Of a stretch of 33,432 bases of DNA, positions 428-22,628 are shown piece after piece (within the stretch, counting starts at the first letter, position 1; each line of letters opens with the position of its first letter). The notes under the pieces were generated by a model. That model was not told where the DNA came from, did not search any database, and saw nothing but the letters and a program-made list of their open reading frames with translations. Source of the stretch: a virus; IMG/VR virus record IMGVR_UViG_3300023210_003947, positions 1 through 33,432 of that record. One strand, written 5' to 3'. A program made the position numbers and the translations under genes.

Positions 428-991
428 TTACACTTTAACTATGCTTATCGTTCCTTCTTTATGAAAATCATTATCGTAATAACCTTTTACCTCGATTGCA
501 TAAGCATAACTACCAATCGGTGCAGGTTTGCCACCATATGTGCCATCCCATTGATCTGATTGTTTATCTGTTTCAAATACTAATTGACCCCATCGGTTAT
601 AAATGATTAGATGGTAGTTTTTTACACCGATACCTAAGCCACCAAAAGTATCGTTCAAACCATCTTCGTTCGGTGTGAATGCATTCGGTACGTAAATATA
701 TAACGATGGTTTAACATCTATTGTATTCGAAACACTCACGATTTCATCATTTACTTTATTTATAGCAGTGACGCGATATTTAATATGTAAATCATCAAGA
801 CCCGGTATAGGATCTCCTGATTCTAATATCCTTGAGTTGTTTTCATTAATATCCATCAGCAATTCCCATGGATCTGGTTTATACCAAACGTCGTATACAT
901 TTATTGCTACTATACTAAGTAAAAGTATTGGTATTATAATTTGTCTAACGTTTCTAGGTAAGCTAAATTTTTTTAGTCTTTTTATAATCAT
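428..991 (-). CDS. Membrane-anchored or secreted protein with CHU_C / T9SS type B sorting domain
   Basis: The 187-residue protein has a basic N-terminus (MIIKRLKKF), one hydrophobic segment at about residues 18-36, a linker of about 65 residues, and a C-terminal domain from about residue 100. That domain carries the hallmarks of the gliding-motility-associated C-terminal domain (TIGR04131, CHU_C, type B): PNAFTPNEDGLNDTF, then YNRWGQLVFE, WDGTYGGKPAP and GSYAYAIE. In Bacteroidota such domains route proteins through the type IX secretion system to the cell surface or medium. The hydrophobic segment may be a signal peptide or a signal anchor. The start overlaps the stop of the upstream gene (988-1209) by four bases, so the two are probably co-translated. 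The domain call is strong. The role in a phage (surface masking, superinfection exclusion, adhesin) is unknown. Confidence 0.85.
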   Translation of the reverse strand: MIIKRLKKFSLPRNVRQIIIPILLLSIVAINVYDVWYKPDPWELLMDINENNSRILESGDPIPGLDDLHIKYRVTAINKVNDEIVSVSNTIDVKPSLYIYVPNAFTPNEDGLNDTFGGLGIGVKNYHLIIYNRWGQLVFETDKQSDQWDGTYGGKPAPIGSYAYAIEVKGYYDNDFHKEGTISIVKV

Positions 992-1209
992 GGTAAGTAT
1001 GGATTATCTGCTAGGTTTGAATATATGACTATACAGATAGCAATGATAACAGAGACAACAAATGCGGTTGACCACGCATGAAACCATTTATAATCTGATA
1101 TCATTTTATCTATAAGCTCTTTATCCTGCTTTTTATATAATTCGATTTGAGCATCTTTCTTTATACGCTCTTCTTTGAAATAGTTTTCATTATCTTTCTT
1201 AGACCTCAC
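988..1209 (-). CDS. Small membrane protein with C-terminal transmembrane helix
   Basis: This 73-residue protein appears to start at GTG (1209-1207); no ATG gives a better start. The first 45 residues are highly charged and probably helical (KKDNENYFKEERIKKDAQ). They are followed by one strong transmembrane segment (STAFVVSVIIAICIVIY) and a short polar tail. The tail-anchored design and four-base overlap with the CHU_C gene suggest a membrane partner for that protein. No family is recognised. Confidence 0.55.
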   Translation of the reverse strand: MRSKKDNENYFKEERIKKDAQIELYKKQDKELIDKMISDYKWFHAWSTAFVVSVIIAICIVIYSNLADNPYLP

Positions 1210-1245
1210 TATATCCTATTTATTTTTATTAGTTACTTCGCTGTT

Positions 1246-1497
1246 TTATTTATCATCTTTCATTTGTTTTGGATTTGATAGTGTTACCATGAACTTACCT
1301 CGAACACTATCATTTAATACAAATGTTATTCCAAAGGTTTTTGATCCGTCTTGCTCTATGACTATGCATTCCTTTGCCGTCGTAGTAACTTCGCCGTCGG
1401 TTCCAAATGTTTCCTTTAAAAAATCTGCAGTAGTTTTAAGGTGATCATTCATGTTCGCTTCCATTACTTTTGTCTCGTCTGTTTTCTTATCTTCCAT
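1246..1497 (-). CDS. Hypothetical protein (83 aa)
   Basis: This complete frame starts at ATG (MEDKKTDETKVMEANM). The N-terminus is charged, and the C-terminal half looks like a small beta-rich domain (ECIVIEQDGSKTFGITFVLN). There is no membrane segment. I do not recognise the family. It is in the same orientation as its neighbours, with short gaps. Confidence 0.5.
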   Translation of the reverse strand: MEDKKTDETKVMEANMNDHLKTTADFLKETFGTDGEVTTTAKECIVIEQDGSKTFGITFVLNDSVRGKFMVTLSNPKQMKDDK

Positions 1498-1506
1498 AAT
1501 TATAAT

Positions 1507-1710
1507 TTAAAAAGACTCTATCATAGAATCACGTCCATTCTCAATTTCTGCTTTAAGTTTACAGTTTTCCTTGAGATATTCAAATTTTTGCTTTTCAGCT
1601 TTTATATATTCTATACGAAGTTTACCATATTTCCATGATATAGCAACAAATAAAATTAATAGTATTGCACATGCAAAGTGATACGGTCGTTCCCTAATGT
1701 CTGTAATCAT
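1507..1710 (-). CDS. Small membrane protein with N-terminal TM and coiled coil (possible spanin-like)
   Basis: The 67-residue protein has a short basic N-terminus, a transmembrane helix (FACAILLILFVAISW) and then a charged, coiled-coil-like stretch (RIEYIKAEKQKFEYLKENCK). This is the architecture of an inner-membrane spanin (Rz type), but it is shorter than typical Rz proteins and sequence alone does not prove it. It overlaps the next upstream gene by four bases. Confidence 0.45.
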   Translation of the reverse strand: MITDIRERPYHFACAILLILFVAISWKYGKLRIEYIKAEKQKFEYLKENCKLKAEIENGRDSMIESF

Positions 1711-1925
1711 TTAGCTGGGTAATTATTTCCAATGTACAAAAATTGGATTGTTTTATAATCAGCGGCTGCATCTTCTATTCTATCATATGGATAAAACATT
1801 TCTTCACTCGGGCTGAGTTTACGAGTTAAATATACTTGACCATTTATTGTGTCTATTCCCATGTTAAATGGTGCACTTAAAAATTCATATAAATCTTTCT
1901 GTACGTTGTAATTAGTTATAATCAT
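1707..1925 (-). CDS. Hypothetical protein (72 aa)
   Basis: The 72-residue frame begins MIITNYNVQKDLYEFLSAPF. It is soluble, with several aromatic residues and no recognisable motif. It ends four bases into the membrane protein gene at 1507-1710, and its start is one base from the end of the gene at 1927-2190, so the three are translationally coupled. Function is unknown. Confidence 0.5.
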   Translation of the reverse strand: MIITNYNVQKDLYEFLSAPFNMGIDTINGQVYLTRKLSPSEEMFYPYDRIEDAAADYKTIQFLYIGNNYPAK

Positions 1926-1926
1926 A

Positions 1927-2190
1927 CTATTTATTTTTTAGGTAATCTTGTACTGCTGGAAAATCTTCTCGTTCTCCTAACATTAAATCGTCAATTCTTT
2001 CTTTTAATTCGTCAAGTGTAAAAAGTTCACTGTAAAGTGATGCTCCACCTGCAGTTACTTCCATTGCACTCCATATAAATTGTTTCTTCATATCGACAGT
2101 TCCGGCGTATACTATGGTGATATAAGTATCTCCCATGTCAATACATAGTGTCTGCATTTCTCGTATTCTGACTGATTCAATAATTCTCAT
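1927..2190 (-). CDS. Hypothetical protein (87 aa)
   Basis: The 87-residue frame has an initial beta-rich part (QTLCIDMGDTYITIVYAG) and a helical C-terminus (LDELKERIDDLMLG). An in-frame ATG at residue 12 is an alternative start. The sequence upstream of the start contains TTAGTAAAATAATA, a weaker version of the TAGTATAATA motif seen before several other genes. No family is recognised. Confidence 0.5.
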   Translation of the reverse strand: MRIIESVRIREMQTLCIDMGDTYITIVYAGTVDMKKQFIWSAMEVTAGGASLYSELFTLDELKERIDDLMLGEREDFPAVQDYLKNK

Positions 2191-2228
2191 AGTATTATTT
2201 TACTAATTTTAATAAACTTTTTTAAATA

Positions 2229-2429
2229 TTATCGTATATATTTAATATAAATAATCGTAATGAATATAACACTTGACCATACAATGAATATAATAAGTAC
2301 ATCAATGAAGCGTGAAATAGCGGCGATTAAGAATAATGAGCTAGAAAATAGAAGTACTTCTACTAAGTCTAATCTACGCAGTAAAATTTTAAAGAAAGCT
2401 ACCACTATTAACTGTTTTTTTACTAGCAT
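2229..2429 (-). CDS. Small membrane protein, two TM segments
   Basis: This 66-residue frame starts at ATG inside the last 41 bases of the sigma-factor gene. Two hydrophobic stretches are visible (VEVLLFSSSLFLIAAIS and VLIIFIVWSSVIFITIIYI), so a two-helix membrane protein is plausible. The overlap suggests coupling to the sigma factor, though the hydrophobicity of AT-rich DNA means a spurious frame cannot be ruled out. Confidence 0.35.
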   Translation of the reverse strand: MLVKKQLIVVAFFKILLRRLDLVEVLLFSSSLFLIAAISRFIDVLIIFIVWSSVIFITIIYIKYIR

Positions 2430-3297
2430 TAAATCTTAATTTCCGTATCGCTGACTTGTACCTACGCTGTATAGTGGCACTGCTCCTTCCTAGATCCGAT
2501 GCTATTTTTGAGAATGATTCTGGAATATCTGTATCAAATCCAAGTCTACGCTTAACTATTTCTCTATTGATGGGCGTAAGTTGATCCAAGTAAGATGCTA
2601 TTAATTTATTATAATCATCAGATTTAACAATATGATCTGCTCCATCTGGATCGCCATTAATTAAATTAACTGGTATAAAGTCACTGTCGTCAGATCCAGT
2701 TCCTTCCAAAGGAGATGCTTTTGTATTTGCTCGTATCGAGTCAACAATTGCCTGTTTCTTTTTAATTTCAACCGATGATGAAGTTAAAACCCCATCGTTA
2801 TCTTGTTCTAAATACGCTTCTATTAATTCATCTTCAGTTGGGTCGCGACCTAGGTCATTAGTTAATTCAGATTCAATATGATTCATCTTAGAAATAGAAG
2901 TTACTTTATTTTGAGGTAATCGTATTTGGCGAGAATGCTCAGATAGGTATAATAACATGTATTTTCTAATATTCCATACTGCATATGATATAAATCTAAA
3001 TCCAGTAGTGTAGTCAAATGCCCTAGCTGCATCTATTAATCCGGTATTTCCTTCGTTAATTAGATCTTGGAATTTAGAAGTACTCCCTCCTGAATATTGC
3101 TTAGCTACACTTATCACGAATCGAAGATTAGATGCAATTAATTTATTAATTGCGTCATTATCTCCCGTTGCTGTTAATTTAGTTACCTCAAGCTCTTCTG
3201 CTGGAGTTAATAATGGATATCTATTAACTTCTACCATGTATCTATCAATTCCACTTGAATTAGGTGTGTATCTTTCGGTAGGTCTAAAATCTCTCAT
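2389..3297 (-). CDS. Sigma-70 family RNA polymerase sigma factor
   Basis: The 302-residue protein has the layout of a group 1/2 sigma factor without region 1.1. Region 1.2-like sequence (DRYMVEVNRYPLLTPAEE) comes first. Region 2 follows, with the core-binding and -10-binding signature (LRFVISVAKQY, DLINEGNTGLIDAARAFD, FRFISYAVWNIRKYM, RQIRLP). A region 3 part (LGRDPTEDELIEAYL) comes next. Region 4 ends with a helix-turn-helix (SFSKIASDLGRSSATIQRRY). It resembles the Bacteroidota primary sigma factor more than T4 gp55. It presumably redirects host RNA polymerase to phage promoters; two recurrent promoter-like motifs in this window are candidate targets. The C-terminus ends with a short basic/serine tail. 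Confidence 0.93.
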   Translation of the reverse strand: MRDFRPTERYTPNSSGIDRYMVEVNRYPLLTPAEELEVTKLTATGDNDAINKLIASNLRFVISVAKQYSGGSTSKFQDLINEGNTGLIDAARAFDYTTGFRFISYAVWNIRKYMLLYLSEHSRQIRLPQNKVTSISKMNHIESELTNDLGRDPTEDELIEAYLEQDNDGVLTSSSVEIKKKQAIVDSIRANTKASPLEGTGSDDSDFIPVNLINGDPDGADHIVKSDDYNKLIASYLDQLTPINREIVKRRLGFDTDIPESFSKIASDLGRSSATIQRRYKSAIRKLRFNASKKTVNSGSFL

Positions 3298-3345
3298 ATT
3301 ATAGTTTTAATAGTTAGAGTACTTATAATTTTACTCAATATTATG

Positions 3346-3360
3346 AATAAATAATAAAAA
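3346..3360 (+). promoter_or_regulatory. Late-type promoter motif upstream of 3374 gene
   Basis: AATAAATAATAAAAA lies 13 bases before the ATG at 3374. The same string recurs before many leader-bearing genes in this window and resembles the T4 late -10 element TATAAATA. Function is inferred from recurrence and position. Confidence 0.6.
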
Positions 3361-3373
3361 TCACGCGACTATT

Positions 3374-4573
3374 ATGCAAGAAATATTTAATTTTAAGACA
3401 TGGAAAAATAGAGTATTTGAACAGGAAACTGTATATACTAAGGAATCTAAGTATGGCGTATATAATTTCGAGGGAGTATTTCCTGATAATATGATAACGC
3501 CAAAACCGGAAGTATACACAGATATAATTGATAAGATGAAATCTGATATAGAAAAGGCAATGGACGATGGTATGAAATTGTCAGAACTTAATATATCAAT
3601 AGAATCAAGTGCAAGTGCTCCCATGGCAACTACATGTCTTCCTAAGGACATAGAAGAAGCAGATCATAATTTCGGAGACGATACACTTAAAGATAAATGG
3701 GCACATTGTGATAGCAACACACGAAGCACACATAGAGTTGAAAATGGTAATAAATTTTTAGCTGAACATCGTGGACTTAAACTTAAGGAAGTATTAATTA
3801 ATGAGATTAATAATATGTTAAAGAGTAAGGATATATCAAATAAGATAACCGATGATATGGTAGAGCTTAGTTTCAAGGTTGCTACCGCAAAGGACCATGT
3901 TGGTGATGATAAAAACAGCGATGATAATCGATATGTAAGAGCAAAGATTGAGGGATTACTTAAATCTAAGAATGTAGAAAAGGAAACTAAGACCGGTCCA
4001 ACTTACCATTATTACATAGAGCTAAATCCAGATGATGGGGCTAAGGAAAGTAGAAAAACCGTTTGGAATTTTAAAGAAAATGGTAAATGGTATCATAAAG
4101 CTGCTTCAGAAAAAATATTCGGAGATGCGAGGAGGAACGCAAGTCCTTCTGAGTTTACTAATCATGATGCTAAAAAGGTGGCAGCGTCACGTGTTAAAGA
4201 TCGTAGCCATGTAGTTTATTCATCTGCTGAAAAAGCACCTGCTGCCGTTCCAAGGATAATTAAAGACCCAGTGGGTCCGACAGAAAAAGCTAACAATAAA
4301 ATAGCATGGAGTAATAGGTTTGGAGGATGGATAACATTTGTAGAAATTAAGAATTACAGTGCAGTAACAAAAGGTGGATCAGGAATCAGATGGTGGTATA
4401 AAGATAATGATGTATTCACAGCTGAGGTTAAAGCATTAAACGTATATCACGGATCCCAACCTATTGTAATAACCAACGATCAAAGTTTACAATGGGGAGC
4501 AGCTAGTATAGGTGGAGGCAAAGGAAAACGCAGTTACACTGTTCCATCCAGTACACCTAGACCTAGTATCTAA
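3374..4573 (+). CDS. Putative packaged internal protein (399 aa), unknown function
   Basis: The protein starts MQEIFNFKTWKNRVFEQE. This has the aromatic-x-x-aromatic pattern (F-K-T-W) followed by V-F-E, like the leader of T4 internal capsid proteins, which is cut by the prohead protease. The rest is soluble. A charged middle part precedes a C-terminal domain rich in aromatic residues and glycine (RFGGWITFVEIKNY, GIRWWYKDND) and ending in a Ser/Pro tail. I recognise no catalytic motif. It stands alone on the plus strand, preceded by a late-type promoter motif and converging with the minus-strand gene ending at 4574. The start is fixed by the promoter spacing and the leader. Confidence 0.7.
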   Translation: MQEIFNFKTWKNRVFEQETVYTKESKYGVYNFEGVFPDNMITPKPEVYTDIIDKMKSDIEKAMDDGMKLSELNISIESSASAPMATTCLPKDIEEADHNFGDDTLKDKWAHCDSNTRSTHRVENGNKFLAEHRGLKLKEVLINEINNMLKSKDISNKITDDMVELSFKVATAKDHVGDDKNSDDNRYVRAKIEGLLKSKNVEKETKTGPTYHYYIELNPDDGAKESRKTVWNFKENGKWYHKAASEKIFGDARRNASPSEFTNHDAKKVAASRVKDRSHVVYSSAEKAPAAVPRIIKDPVGPTEKANNKIAWSNRFGGWITFVEIKNYSAVTKGGSGIRWWYKDNDVFTAEVKALNVYHGSQPIVITNDQSLQWGAASIGGGKGKRSYTVPSSTPRPSI

Positions 4574-20289: not shown

Positions 20290-20298
20290 GTGCTATAG

Positions 20299-20314
20299 TT
20301 TTTTATTATTTATT
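20299..20314 (-). promoter_or_regulatory. Late-type promoter motif for 20289 gene
   Basis: The minus strand reads AATAAATAATAAAAAA, nine bases before the ATG. Confidence 0.6.
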
Positions 20315-20327
20315 CAACTTTATAAAC

Positions 20328-20359
20328 AAAAAAGACCTACTGATCAAGGAAGGTCTTTT
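20328..20359 (-). terminator. Terminator after tmRNA / tRNA-like RNA unit
   Basis: On the minus strand, AAAAGACCT / AGGTCTTTT arms with a 12-base loop are followed by six T residues. It lies 21 bases after the encoded CCA of the tRNA-like RNA and closes the RNA gene cluster. Confidence 0.75.
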
Positions 20360-20380: not shown

Positions 20381-20510
20381 TGGTTCATATTACGGATTCG
20401 AACCGCTTTGCTCTATATTCTGTTCGCCAATGTTTAGCGTTACGTATTATTAAGAGTAATCCTTGAGTTGGTACCAACTCAAGGACCGTGTATCCCATCC
20501 ACCAATATGA
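20381..20510 (-). ncRNA. tRNA-like RNA lacking an anticodon arm
   Basis: The two ends pair as a perfect 7-bp acceptor stem (TCATATT with AATATGA), followed by A and an encoded CCA. A T-arm-like element precedes it, with loop TTCGAAT between GCGG and CCGT. A D-arm-like element (GTGGATGGGATACAC) follows the 5' strand. Where the anticodon arm should be, there is a perfect 26-base palindrome (20460-20485) that folds as a closed hairpin without a seven-base loop. About 50 further bases follow, with a second hairpin (CGCTAA / TTGGCG). At about 130 nt it is too long for a tRNA and has no usable anticodon. It could be a tRNA-derived regulatory RNA or a decayed tRNA. It lies 70 bases downstream of the tmRNA and ahead of a shared terminator. 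The spacer holds two more hairpins (20513-20529 and 20533-20554). Confidence 0.5.
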
Positions 20511-20580
20511 ATAAAGGACTTTCACCTTTCCTGATTAGCTGTAACCCACTAATCTTATTTGATCATTCAATCAAACCGTG

Positions 20581-20935
20581 TGGAGACGGAGGGACTCGAA
20601 CCCTCGTCCATTAAACATCGACAATAGATTTTATTACAGCATAGGATAATCGTTTTCTAACAATTCCAAAATAGAGAGTTCCCTTATTACTGTTCGGTTT
20701 ACTCATAACTAATCTTCAGGTTTTCAATTTCACGCGTGAGAAATAGAAATACTAACTAAACTGTTACTTCCTTTTACATCTAATCAACCTACAAGTATAC
20801 TCAGTTACATGATGTGCACTACTTACCTATTAGGCAGCCATTGCGTACTCAGCGTTGTCGGCTAAGATTGATGTAGGTCATCACCCGTTGCTGAATCTAA
20901 AGCTTCTCGAATAATGTCAAAGCCATGTCATCCCC
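20581..20935 (-). ncRNA. ssrA: Transfer-messenger RNA (tmRNA)
   Basis: Read on the minus strand, the RNA begins GGGGATGACATGGCTTTGAC and ends with a T-arm (GAGGG-TTCGAGT-CCCTC) and CGTCTCCA. The 5' GGGGATG pairs with the 3' CGTCTCC as the acceptor stem (two G-U pairs); CCA is not encoded. Bases after the 5' end pair with those before the T-arm (TTTAGATT with AATCTATT, CATTA with TAATG), forming the long tmRNA helix 2. The tag frame reads GCC GAC AAC GCT GAG TAC GCA ATG GCT GCC TAA TAG, encoding ADNAEYAMAA, a typical degradation tag ending. At about 355 nt the length is normal. It would rescue ribosomes stalled on broken mRNAs, using host SmpB. Upstream, TAGTATA lies about 30 bases before the 5' end and may be its promoter; the transcript is likely trimmed. 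Confidence 0.94.
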
Positions 20936-21608: not shown

Positions 21609-22628
21609 TTACACCAACTCAAGATTAAAAATTCGTTGCAATTCCCTTCTCTGTCTATTAATTAAGTCAGGAGAGTATGCTTCAATTAAACGTTTAACAT
21701 CGTTTTGATTTGATACGTATAATAAATCCTTAAGAACTGGATCCTTAATTAACTTCTTCTCGGGATCATATTCTATCTGAATAGCAGCAAGACAATTAGA
21801 CGCAAGGGTTTCATAGAACCTGTATGTTGTTACGTTGTCTAGGTGTTCTTCGTCTCCGGTAATAAATGAGACTTTTACTTTATCCAATTGCGCCATTAGG
21901 TCTTCGTGCTTTAACTTCTTCATGAATTCTCCTGGTACCTTATCAGACTTATATCCAATTTTTAGATTGTTTGTATCTGATGGGAAATACTTTCTTAATT
22001 GATTTTCTCTAAAGGATCCTCTTTTATCTCCAAAATATACGAGATCGAATTCTTTTTCAAGTGTTTCGTCGGCAGGTGCAAATATGTCAAATTGTTCCGA
22101 GTTAGTAAATCGTTCCTTAAAGATATAAGTGAACCAATCTACCTGTTGATGGTTTTTAGGTTCGTATCCTAGAAATTGCTCTATATTCTTTCCAGCAAAT
22201 AAGTACGTCGCATTCTCAATAATATTATCCCAAAGTTCAACAGATTCATTACATATATCAAATCGTTCAGATATAGTCTTTGCGTAATTCATTGGTGGAA
22301 TTCGTGGATCATTAATAAGGAAATAAATCTTTCCTTTAAACTTTGCAAGGTTATTACAAATAGTTTCACAATGTTCTCCCATAACTCCTCCGAAGAAATT
22401 AGGCGTAGATAATTGAACGATAACTGCTCCGTATTCTGAGAAATCATTGTCTGTATAGTTATGATAGAAATCAAGATCCTTCATGTTTCTATTCTTATAA
22501 CCTACACAATCAACTTGAGCTCCTTTTTCTTCCATCATTTTCTTGATGAACATTGCTTCTAGTCCTCTATGGTTCTTATCGTTATACGTAAGATTTGCAA
22601 ATACTGATGTTAACGCTATTTTCTTCAT
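21609..22628 (-). CDS. DNA glucosyltransferase-like (T4 beta-glucosyltransferase family)
   Basis: The 339-residue protein follows T4 beta-glucosyltransferase (351 residues) along its length. Matching blocks are an N-terminal MKKIALTSVFAN strand, VQLSTPNFFGG, AKFKGKIYFLINDPRIPP, FDLVYFGDKRGSFRENQL, FITGDEEHLDNVTTYRFYET, LASNCLAAIQIEYDPEKKLI and LLYVSNQNDVKRLIEA. The T4 enzyme moves glucose from UDP-glucose to 5-hydroxymethylcytosine in phage DNA, protecting it from restriction. If the activity is conserved, this phage should carry a hydroxymethylated base; no enzyme making one is in the window, and a different acceptor is possible. It has a TAGTATAATA-type promoter motif and no leader. Confidence 0.85.
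   Translation of the reverse strand: MKKIALTSVFANLTYNDKNHRGLEAMFIKKMMEEKGAQVDCVGYKNRNMKDLDFYHNYTDNDFSEYGAVIVQLSTPNFFGGVMGEHCETICNNLAKFKGKIYFLINDPRIPPMNYAKTISERFDICNESVELWDNIIENATYLFAGKNIEQFLGYEPKNHQQVDWFTYIFKERFTNSEQFDIFAPADETLEKEFDLVYFGDKRGSFRENQLRKYFPSDTNNLKIGYKSDKVPGEFMKKLKHEDLMAQLDKVKVSFITGDEEHLDNVTTYRFYETLASNCLAAIQIEYDPEKKLIKDPVLKDLLYVSNQNDVKRLIEAYSPDLINRQRRELQRIFNLELV

Follow-up and report, generated by a model that had tools for sequence, protein, structure and literature searches.

A complete phage tmRNA gene with a lineage-specific family of DNAE-type tags

The DNA analysed here (the window) is an IMG/VR virus record of 33,432 bases, for which an initial annotation had proposed a phage-encoded tmRNA at positions 20581–20935. 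The locus raises the question of whether this gene is genuine and complete, where it and its tag belong, and what such an RNA would do for a phage.

The tmRNA gene and its fold

The window carries a genuine, complete phage tmRNA gene, and the proposal was borne out by three approaches: a search with Rfam RF00023, a gene call by ARAGORN and a covariation test. RF00023 matched the minus strand from 20935 to 20578 at full length (positions 1–374) with 68.6 bits (E 7.1e-25), above the gathering score of 47; a near-identical contig (L002/L040) reached 75.8 bits. ARAGORN called a standard one-piece tmRNA ending at 20580 with the tag DNAEYAMAA and two stops. The coordinates first given were thus right, and the strand, which had been left out, is minus. 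The gene is about 355 nt long plus CCA, which is not encoded in the window and is encoded in several relatives of this tmRNA; the RNA begins with GGGGAUGACAUGGCUUUGACA and finishes with GGACGAGGGUUCGAGUCCCUCCGUCUCCA. A nucleotide similarity search against named phages returned nothing beyond the universal T-arm stretch, and a promoter scan of the sequence gave no more matches than were obtained in shuffles. The features are collected in Table 1.

Table 1. Positions of the tmRNA, its parts and neighbouring elements in the window, and of the Clp genes of a tmRNA-bearing relative.
Feature	Position	Strand	Basis or remark
tmRNA (ssrA) gene, one-piece standard form	20581–20935	-	RF00023, ARAGORN and covariation test (12 phage homologues)
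Acceptor stem, 5' strand GGGGAUG	20929–20935	-	third pair G-U in 12/12 sequences
Acceptor stem, 3' strand CGUCUCC	20582–20588	-	discriminator A at 20581
Helix 2, 5' strand	20889–20915	-	covariation alignment, helices 2–5
Pseudoknot 1, GGGU-GAUG-ACCU-A-CAUC (GGGU/ACCU with GAUG/CAUC)	20870–20886	-	pairs invariant in 12 aligned sequences
Tag reading frame GAC AAC GCU GAG UAC GCA AUG GCU GCC = DNAEYAMAA	20833–20859	-	ARAGORN, frame read
Tag stop codons UAA UAG	20827–20832	-	directly after tag frame
Pseudoknot 2 (AAGUA/UACUU with CAUC/GAUG) and inner helix UAAC/GUUG	20777–20824	-	helices 8–10 of covariation test
Helix 2, 3' strand	20610–20641	-	covariation alignment, helices 2–5
T-arm GAGGG-UUCGAGU-CCCUC	20589–20605	-	RF00023 match and covariation; one pair is A-U in the window and U-A in relatives
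128-nt tRNA-like element	20384–20511	-	acceptor UUCAUAU/AUAUGAA, D-arm, T-arm
Probable intrinsic terminator of the unit, AAAAGACCU..AGGUCUUUU then U-run	20330–20359	-	12-nt loop; read from sequence
ClpC-like ATPase, 674 aa	L102 (G001:77500-81600), ORF 991–3015		AAA_2, D2-small domain, IGFE stretch
ClpP, 222 aa	L102 (G001:77500-81600), ORF 3015–3683		PF00574, 197 bits; Ser-His-Asp motifs

For the covariation test, 12 distinct phage sequences were aligned and scored against a hand-drawn structure that included the pseudoknots. Pairing was found in 92.2 % of the cells and two-sided changes at 13 of 50 pairs, which was equalled by none of 500 shuffles; when the partners were slid by 1–3 columns, pairing fell to 38–51 %. 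The structure was drawn on the window sequence, which biases the score towards the window and its twin; the informative part of these figures is the set of two-sided changes among the ten remaining sequences. The majority of such changes lie in helices 2–5; pair 5 of the acceptor also changes on both sides (A-U in the window, G-C in relatives), the inner helix of pseudoknot 2 holds two, and one pair of that pseudoknot varies as U-A, U-G and C-G. Pseudoknot 1 and one stem of pseudoknot 2 are invariant in the alignment and are therefore neither supported nor contradicted by covariation; minor variants of pseudoknot 1, in the outer pair or the loop, were seen in L104–L110. Helix 3, a short inner piece of helix 2, is 47 % paired and is not common to the relatives. 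Helix 2 and pseudoknots 1 and 2 are paired across the family. Covariation is seen in helix 2, in the acceptor and T-arm and in the inner helix of pseudoknot 2, and it supports the tmRNA fold. The 7-bp match of the acceptor ends, the T-arm and the helix 2 pairing, all claimed beforehand from the single sequence, hold on alignment with the 11 other phage sequences. Intact in all 12 are the G3-U70 pair, an A at position −4 before the tag, the T-arm and the end of the tag. The G-U third pair of the acceptor (G3-U70) is the alanine signal of tRNA-Ala and tmRNA.

The tag, its family and the likely host

The stretch UUAGCC stands immediately 5' of GAC, with its A at −4. The E. coli resume codon, G90, follows U85, A86 and GUC; A86 is almost invariant and is required (PMC2481249). 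Since U-A-GCC precedes GAC with A at −4 as in this rule, GAC is most likely the resume codon and the encoded tag most likely has the nine residues DNAEYAMAA; GCC was rejected as resume codon because a C would then fall at −4, contrary to the same rule. With GAC as resume codon, the first alanine of ADNAEYAMAA, the tag as initially annotated, would come from the charged Ala-tmRNA. That string is retained as the appended peptide, A-DNAEYAMAA, with its leading alanine most likely carried by the tmRNA and not encoded; the frame ending in AMAA and two stops was found as described (AMAA-UAA-UAG).

By using patterns built on the tag and pseudoknot 1, tmRNAs with DNAE[Y/L/F]AMAA were found in 25 IMG/VR contigs, over which the single hydrophobic position (Y/L/F) is the only change in the tag. 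The Y form occurs in the near twin (L002/L040), L043, L054 and L065, the F form in L107 and the L form in all others. Other matches to the tag pattern among L036–L057 were mainly tmRNAs of other phages with different tags. In most contigs that reach far enough, tRNA-Ala(UGC) lies within a few bases 3' of the tmRNA, in some members after an intervening tRNA-Gly(ACC).

When 84,980 species of bacteria and archaea were scanned for DNxEYAMAA, two matches were obtained, ANDNYEYAMAA in a Pseudodesulfovibrio MAG and ADDNFEYAMAA in a proteobacterial MAG, both being longer tags and both lying outside Bacteroidota; the nine-residue form was found in none of the species scanned. A DNAE tag is likewise absent from the tag table built into ARAGORN. 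Most Bacteroidota are entered there with tags of the GENNYALAA type, in line with the earlier remark that the phage tag departs from this type; the remark was overstated, since the same table has Bacteroidota tags that end in AMAA (GESNYAMAA, GEESYAMAA) and one that begins with D (Fluviicola DNTSYALAA). The named relatives of the window proteins, at roughly 20–30 % identity, are a Flavobacterium phage, two Chryseobacterium phages, Tenacibaculum phages, Prevotella Lak phages and a Sphingomonas phage. On the basis of these distant phage relatives, the host is likely to belong to Bacteroidota.

Origin of the gene and its genomic surroundings

Phages that are close to the window in the neighbouring glucosyltransferase (up to 90 % identity) and in tail genes have the same gene order, and in these order-conserving relatives no tmRNA separates the glucosyltransferase from the next gene. 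The distribution of the gene is patchy and, since the closest relatives do not have it at this locus, it was probably gained from another phage. The shared structural protein is 29–31 % identical to that of other DNAE-tag phages versus 59–68 % for two tmRNA-less window relatives; the tag/pseudoknot core is 84–87 % identical to that of the distant group and the middle of the RNA 35–47 %. So similar a core in such distant phages is consistent with the tmRNA having passed from one phage lineage to another, and strong constraint on the core could contribute to its high identity. These comparisons suggest that the probable source of the tmRNA is another large phage lineage and not a recent capture from a host.

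One window relative (G030) carries a different tmRNA at another place (L082, 1503–1909, minus strand), for which ARAGORN reported the long tag DEKSTFTFEDAMSFVSGEVAVAA. The glucosyltransferase of the window (21609–22628, minus strand) is a T4-like beta-glucosyltransferase (PF09198), which suggests modified, glucosylated DNA in this phage lineage.

Downstream of the tmRNA, about 70 nt from its 3' end and upstream of the terminator-like hairpin, lies a 128-nt tRNA-like element. It has a perfect 7-bp acceptor, U8, a D-arm with GG and a T-arm with UUCGAAU; in place of an anticodon arm there are a hairpin of 11 bp, with GUAC as its loop, and some 50 more bases. Its fold was better than that of 200 of 200 shuffles (z −4.6). 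A filter for the acceptor, T-arm and D-arm is expected to match 0.013 times per random window of the same composition, a figure that is not a clean p-value because the filter was designed after the element had been seen; the rest of its matches, in loci totalling about 1 Mb, were almost all on tRNA genes called by ARAGORN. The element itself was read by ARAGORN as a tRNA with a 50-nt insert at lowered thresholds only, had no match to the Rfam tRNA family at E up to 10 and gave no homologue outside the near-identical contig (L002/L040). It was rejected as a second tmRNA, since its double stop follows ...LKDYS, which is not tag-like, and there was no covariance-model match; as a member of the YrlA or plastid UTR families it gave sub-threshold chance matches only. 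A 635-kb phage also has, within its tRNA array, an unusual tRNA-like gene of about 124 nt with a long insertion (L093, 525–648), which ARAGORN at a lowered threshold reads as tRNA-Ser with a 31-nt insert. The loop of the probable terminator exceeds the loop limit of the scanner, and part of the hairpin is kept in relatives without the tmRNA. The motif ATAAATAATAAAAAACTATA recurs at 20290–20337 (minus strand) of the window and at many places in L003–L035, and resembles a T4-type late promoter (TATAAATA).

A search for SmpB (PF01668) gave no match in 19 records of the tmRNA family, most of them fragments, including the 181,663-base contig G001, so host SmpB would have to serve; the related huge phages LR745206.1 (635 kb) and LR756502.1 (642 kb) encode SmpB, and no tmRNA scored above the cut-off there. 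G001 combines a tmRNA with the tag DNAELAMAA with a ClpC-like ATPase, whose IGFE stretch resembles ClpP-docking loops, and with ClpP; the two reading frames overlap by one base. The same ATPase is found in a 70-kb tmRNA contig (G038). In a tmRNA-less window relative (G026) a 243-aa ClpP (L081, 1435–2166, minus strand) adjoins the same glucosyltransferase gene, at the variable spot where the window has the tmRNA on the other side. Within the 33-kb window fragment there is no Clp gene. With most contigs being fragments, the co-occurrence of the tmRNA family with Clp genes is suggestive only.

Possible roles and comparison with known systems

We consider it reasonably probable that the gene yields a functional one-piece tmRNA that takes part in ordinary trans-translation with host SmpB and alanyl-tRNA synthetase (AlaRS) and recycles ribosomes during infection, ribosome recycling being one of the two roles suggested initially. 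Its charging, use of SmpB, timing and protease we infer as follows. Host AlaRS would charge the RNA with alanine via G3-U70, and host SmpB would bring it to ribosomes that have stalled because their mRNA is cut or incomplete. Such mRNAs may be expected to be common where host transcripts are being degraded by a large T4-like phage or host defence nucleases act. The ribosome would then switch to GAC, append A-DNAEYAMAA, stop at UAA UAG and be recycled, and the tagged fragment would be degraded, most simply by host ClpXP reading the C-terminal -A-[LM]-A-A. This role is favoured by the full-length RF00023 match, the tag call and the covariation over 12 phage sequences; by the presence of G3-U70, A at −4, T-arm and tag end in 12/12; by a tag that varies at one position only in 25 contigs; by the core that is so much better conserved (84–87 versus 35–47 %) than the middle of the RNA; by the conserved-order relatives that lack the gene at the locus; and by the tmRNA genes in 402 of 18,146 phage genomes (PMC9004378). 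Against it stand the lack of SmpB in the tmRNA-bearing phage records searched and the fact that quality control predicts no need for a private tag, yet this tag is absent from the bacterial genomes scanned.

In a private tag-and-destroy route, which takes up the initial suggestion that tagged proteins are redirected to another protease, A-DNAE[YLF]AMAA proteins would be preferred by a phage ClpC-like/ClpP protease, giving the phage control over their breakdown and returning amino acids for reuse; to this idea we give a small chance. It draws on G001, where the tmRNA coexists with an AAA+ ATPase of ClpC type (IGF-type loop) directly followed by ClpP, on the ATPase in G038 and on the ClpP beside the glucosyltransferase in G026. 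However, ClpP and ClpA/X of jumbo phages may serve virion assembly or host attack (PMC7824862), the window, a 33-kb fragment, has no Clp gene, and a tag ending in A-M-A-A should be readable by ordinary ClpX. Smaller still is the chance that large phages, probably of Bacteroidota, run a largely private pathway in which the DNAE[YLF]AMAA tag is read by the phage ClpC-like/ClpP pair and only SmpB and AlaRS come from the host, with the second tRNA-like RNA as an addition in the window. It is likewise unlikely that the divergent copy is a replacement which escapes host defence toxins or nucleases that cleave tmRNA or tRNAs, and so restores rescue. A passage in PMC10264068 has it that phage tRNAs can evade tRNA-targeting defences, one in PMC3912914 that tmRNA can be cleaved by toxins (HigB), and the flanking tRNA-Ala of most family members, with tRNA-Gly in some, fits the same logic; no toxin or cleavage site is known for the hosts of the tmRNA-family phages, and the change of tag is left without explanation.

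We regard two further readings as very improbable. The RNA might titrate SmpB and so block trans-translation in the host, in the manner of the tag-less tmRNA of mycobacteriophage DS6A: molecules of that kind inhibit tmRNA, perhaps through SmpB titration (PMC4131195), and no SmpB gene accompanies the family tmRNA, but a decoy would need none of the tag frame, stop, pseudoknots 1 and 2 and upstream A that are kept in 25 contigs. Or it might be an unselected host ssrA copy, the relic of a prophage attachment site, as ssrA is often used for integration (PMC11915505, PMC9004378); against this, no integrase was recognised among the scanned window proteins, distant phage groups have the gene in complete form and with helices that covary, the nine-residue tag was met in no scanned bacterial species, and the fold, under two-sided base-pair change, and the tag are conserved across distant phages.

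Mycobacteriophages and phage G are reported carriers of tmRNAs (PMC4131195), huge phages with tmRNA and SmpB are on record (PMC7162821), a 2025 tmRNA database holds 79 unique phage sequences (PMC11915505), and Clp proteins occur in jumbo phages (PMC7824862). Since phage tmRNAs and jumbo-phage Clp proteins were already known, the gene is a further phage tmRNA, with a lineage-specific tag family that forms a new branch within a known kind of system. The value of this compact family lies in its distinctive tag, covarying structure, patchy spread between phage lineages and the one contig with Clp genes; it offers a concrete tag to seek by proteomics of infected cells, and its RNA is a defined target for deletion or expression.

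The tmRNAs of Bacillus phage G, the Bxz1/Wildcat mycobacteriophages, methylophage Melnitz and huge phages are likewise complete ssrA genes on tailed-phage genomes, and similar roles have been proposed for phage tmRNAs elsewhere (PMC4131195, PMC9004378, PMC7162821). The present family differs in its tags (DNAEYAMAA, DNAELAMAA, DNAEFAMAA), which are not in the ARAGORN table, and in belonging to a distinct large-phage lineage that probably infects Bacteroidota; the Melnitz gene is in two pieces, whereas the window tmRNA is in one. The DS6A RNA, a relative of phage tmRNAs, has little beyond the tRNA-like domain (PMC4131195), unlike the window tmRNA with its conserved tag frame and stop. Compared by tag only, the chromosomal tmRNAs of Bacteroidota share nine-residue tags, -YA[LM]AA ends and, in Fluviicola, an initial D, but DNAE occurs in no listed species. 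One jumbo phage with both tmRNA and Clp-type genes is known, Sinorhizobium phage AP-J-162 (PMC11242549); its host (Alphaproteobacteria) is unrelated, and G001 has the ClpC-like/ClpP genes as an adjacent pair.
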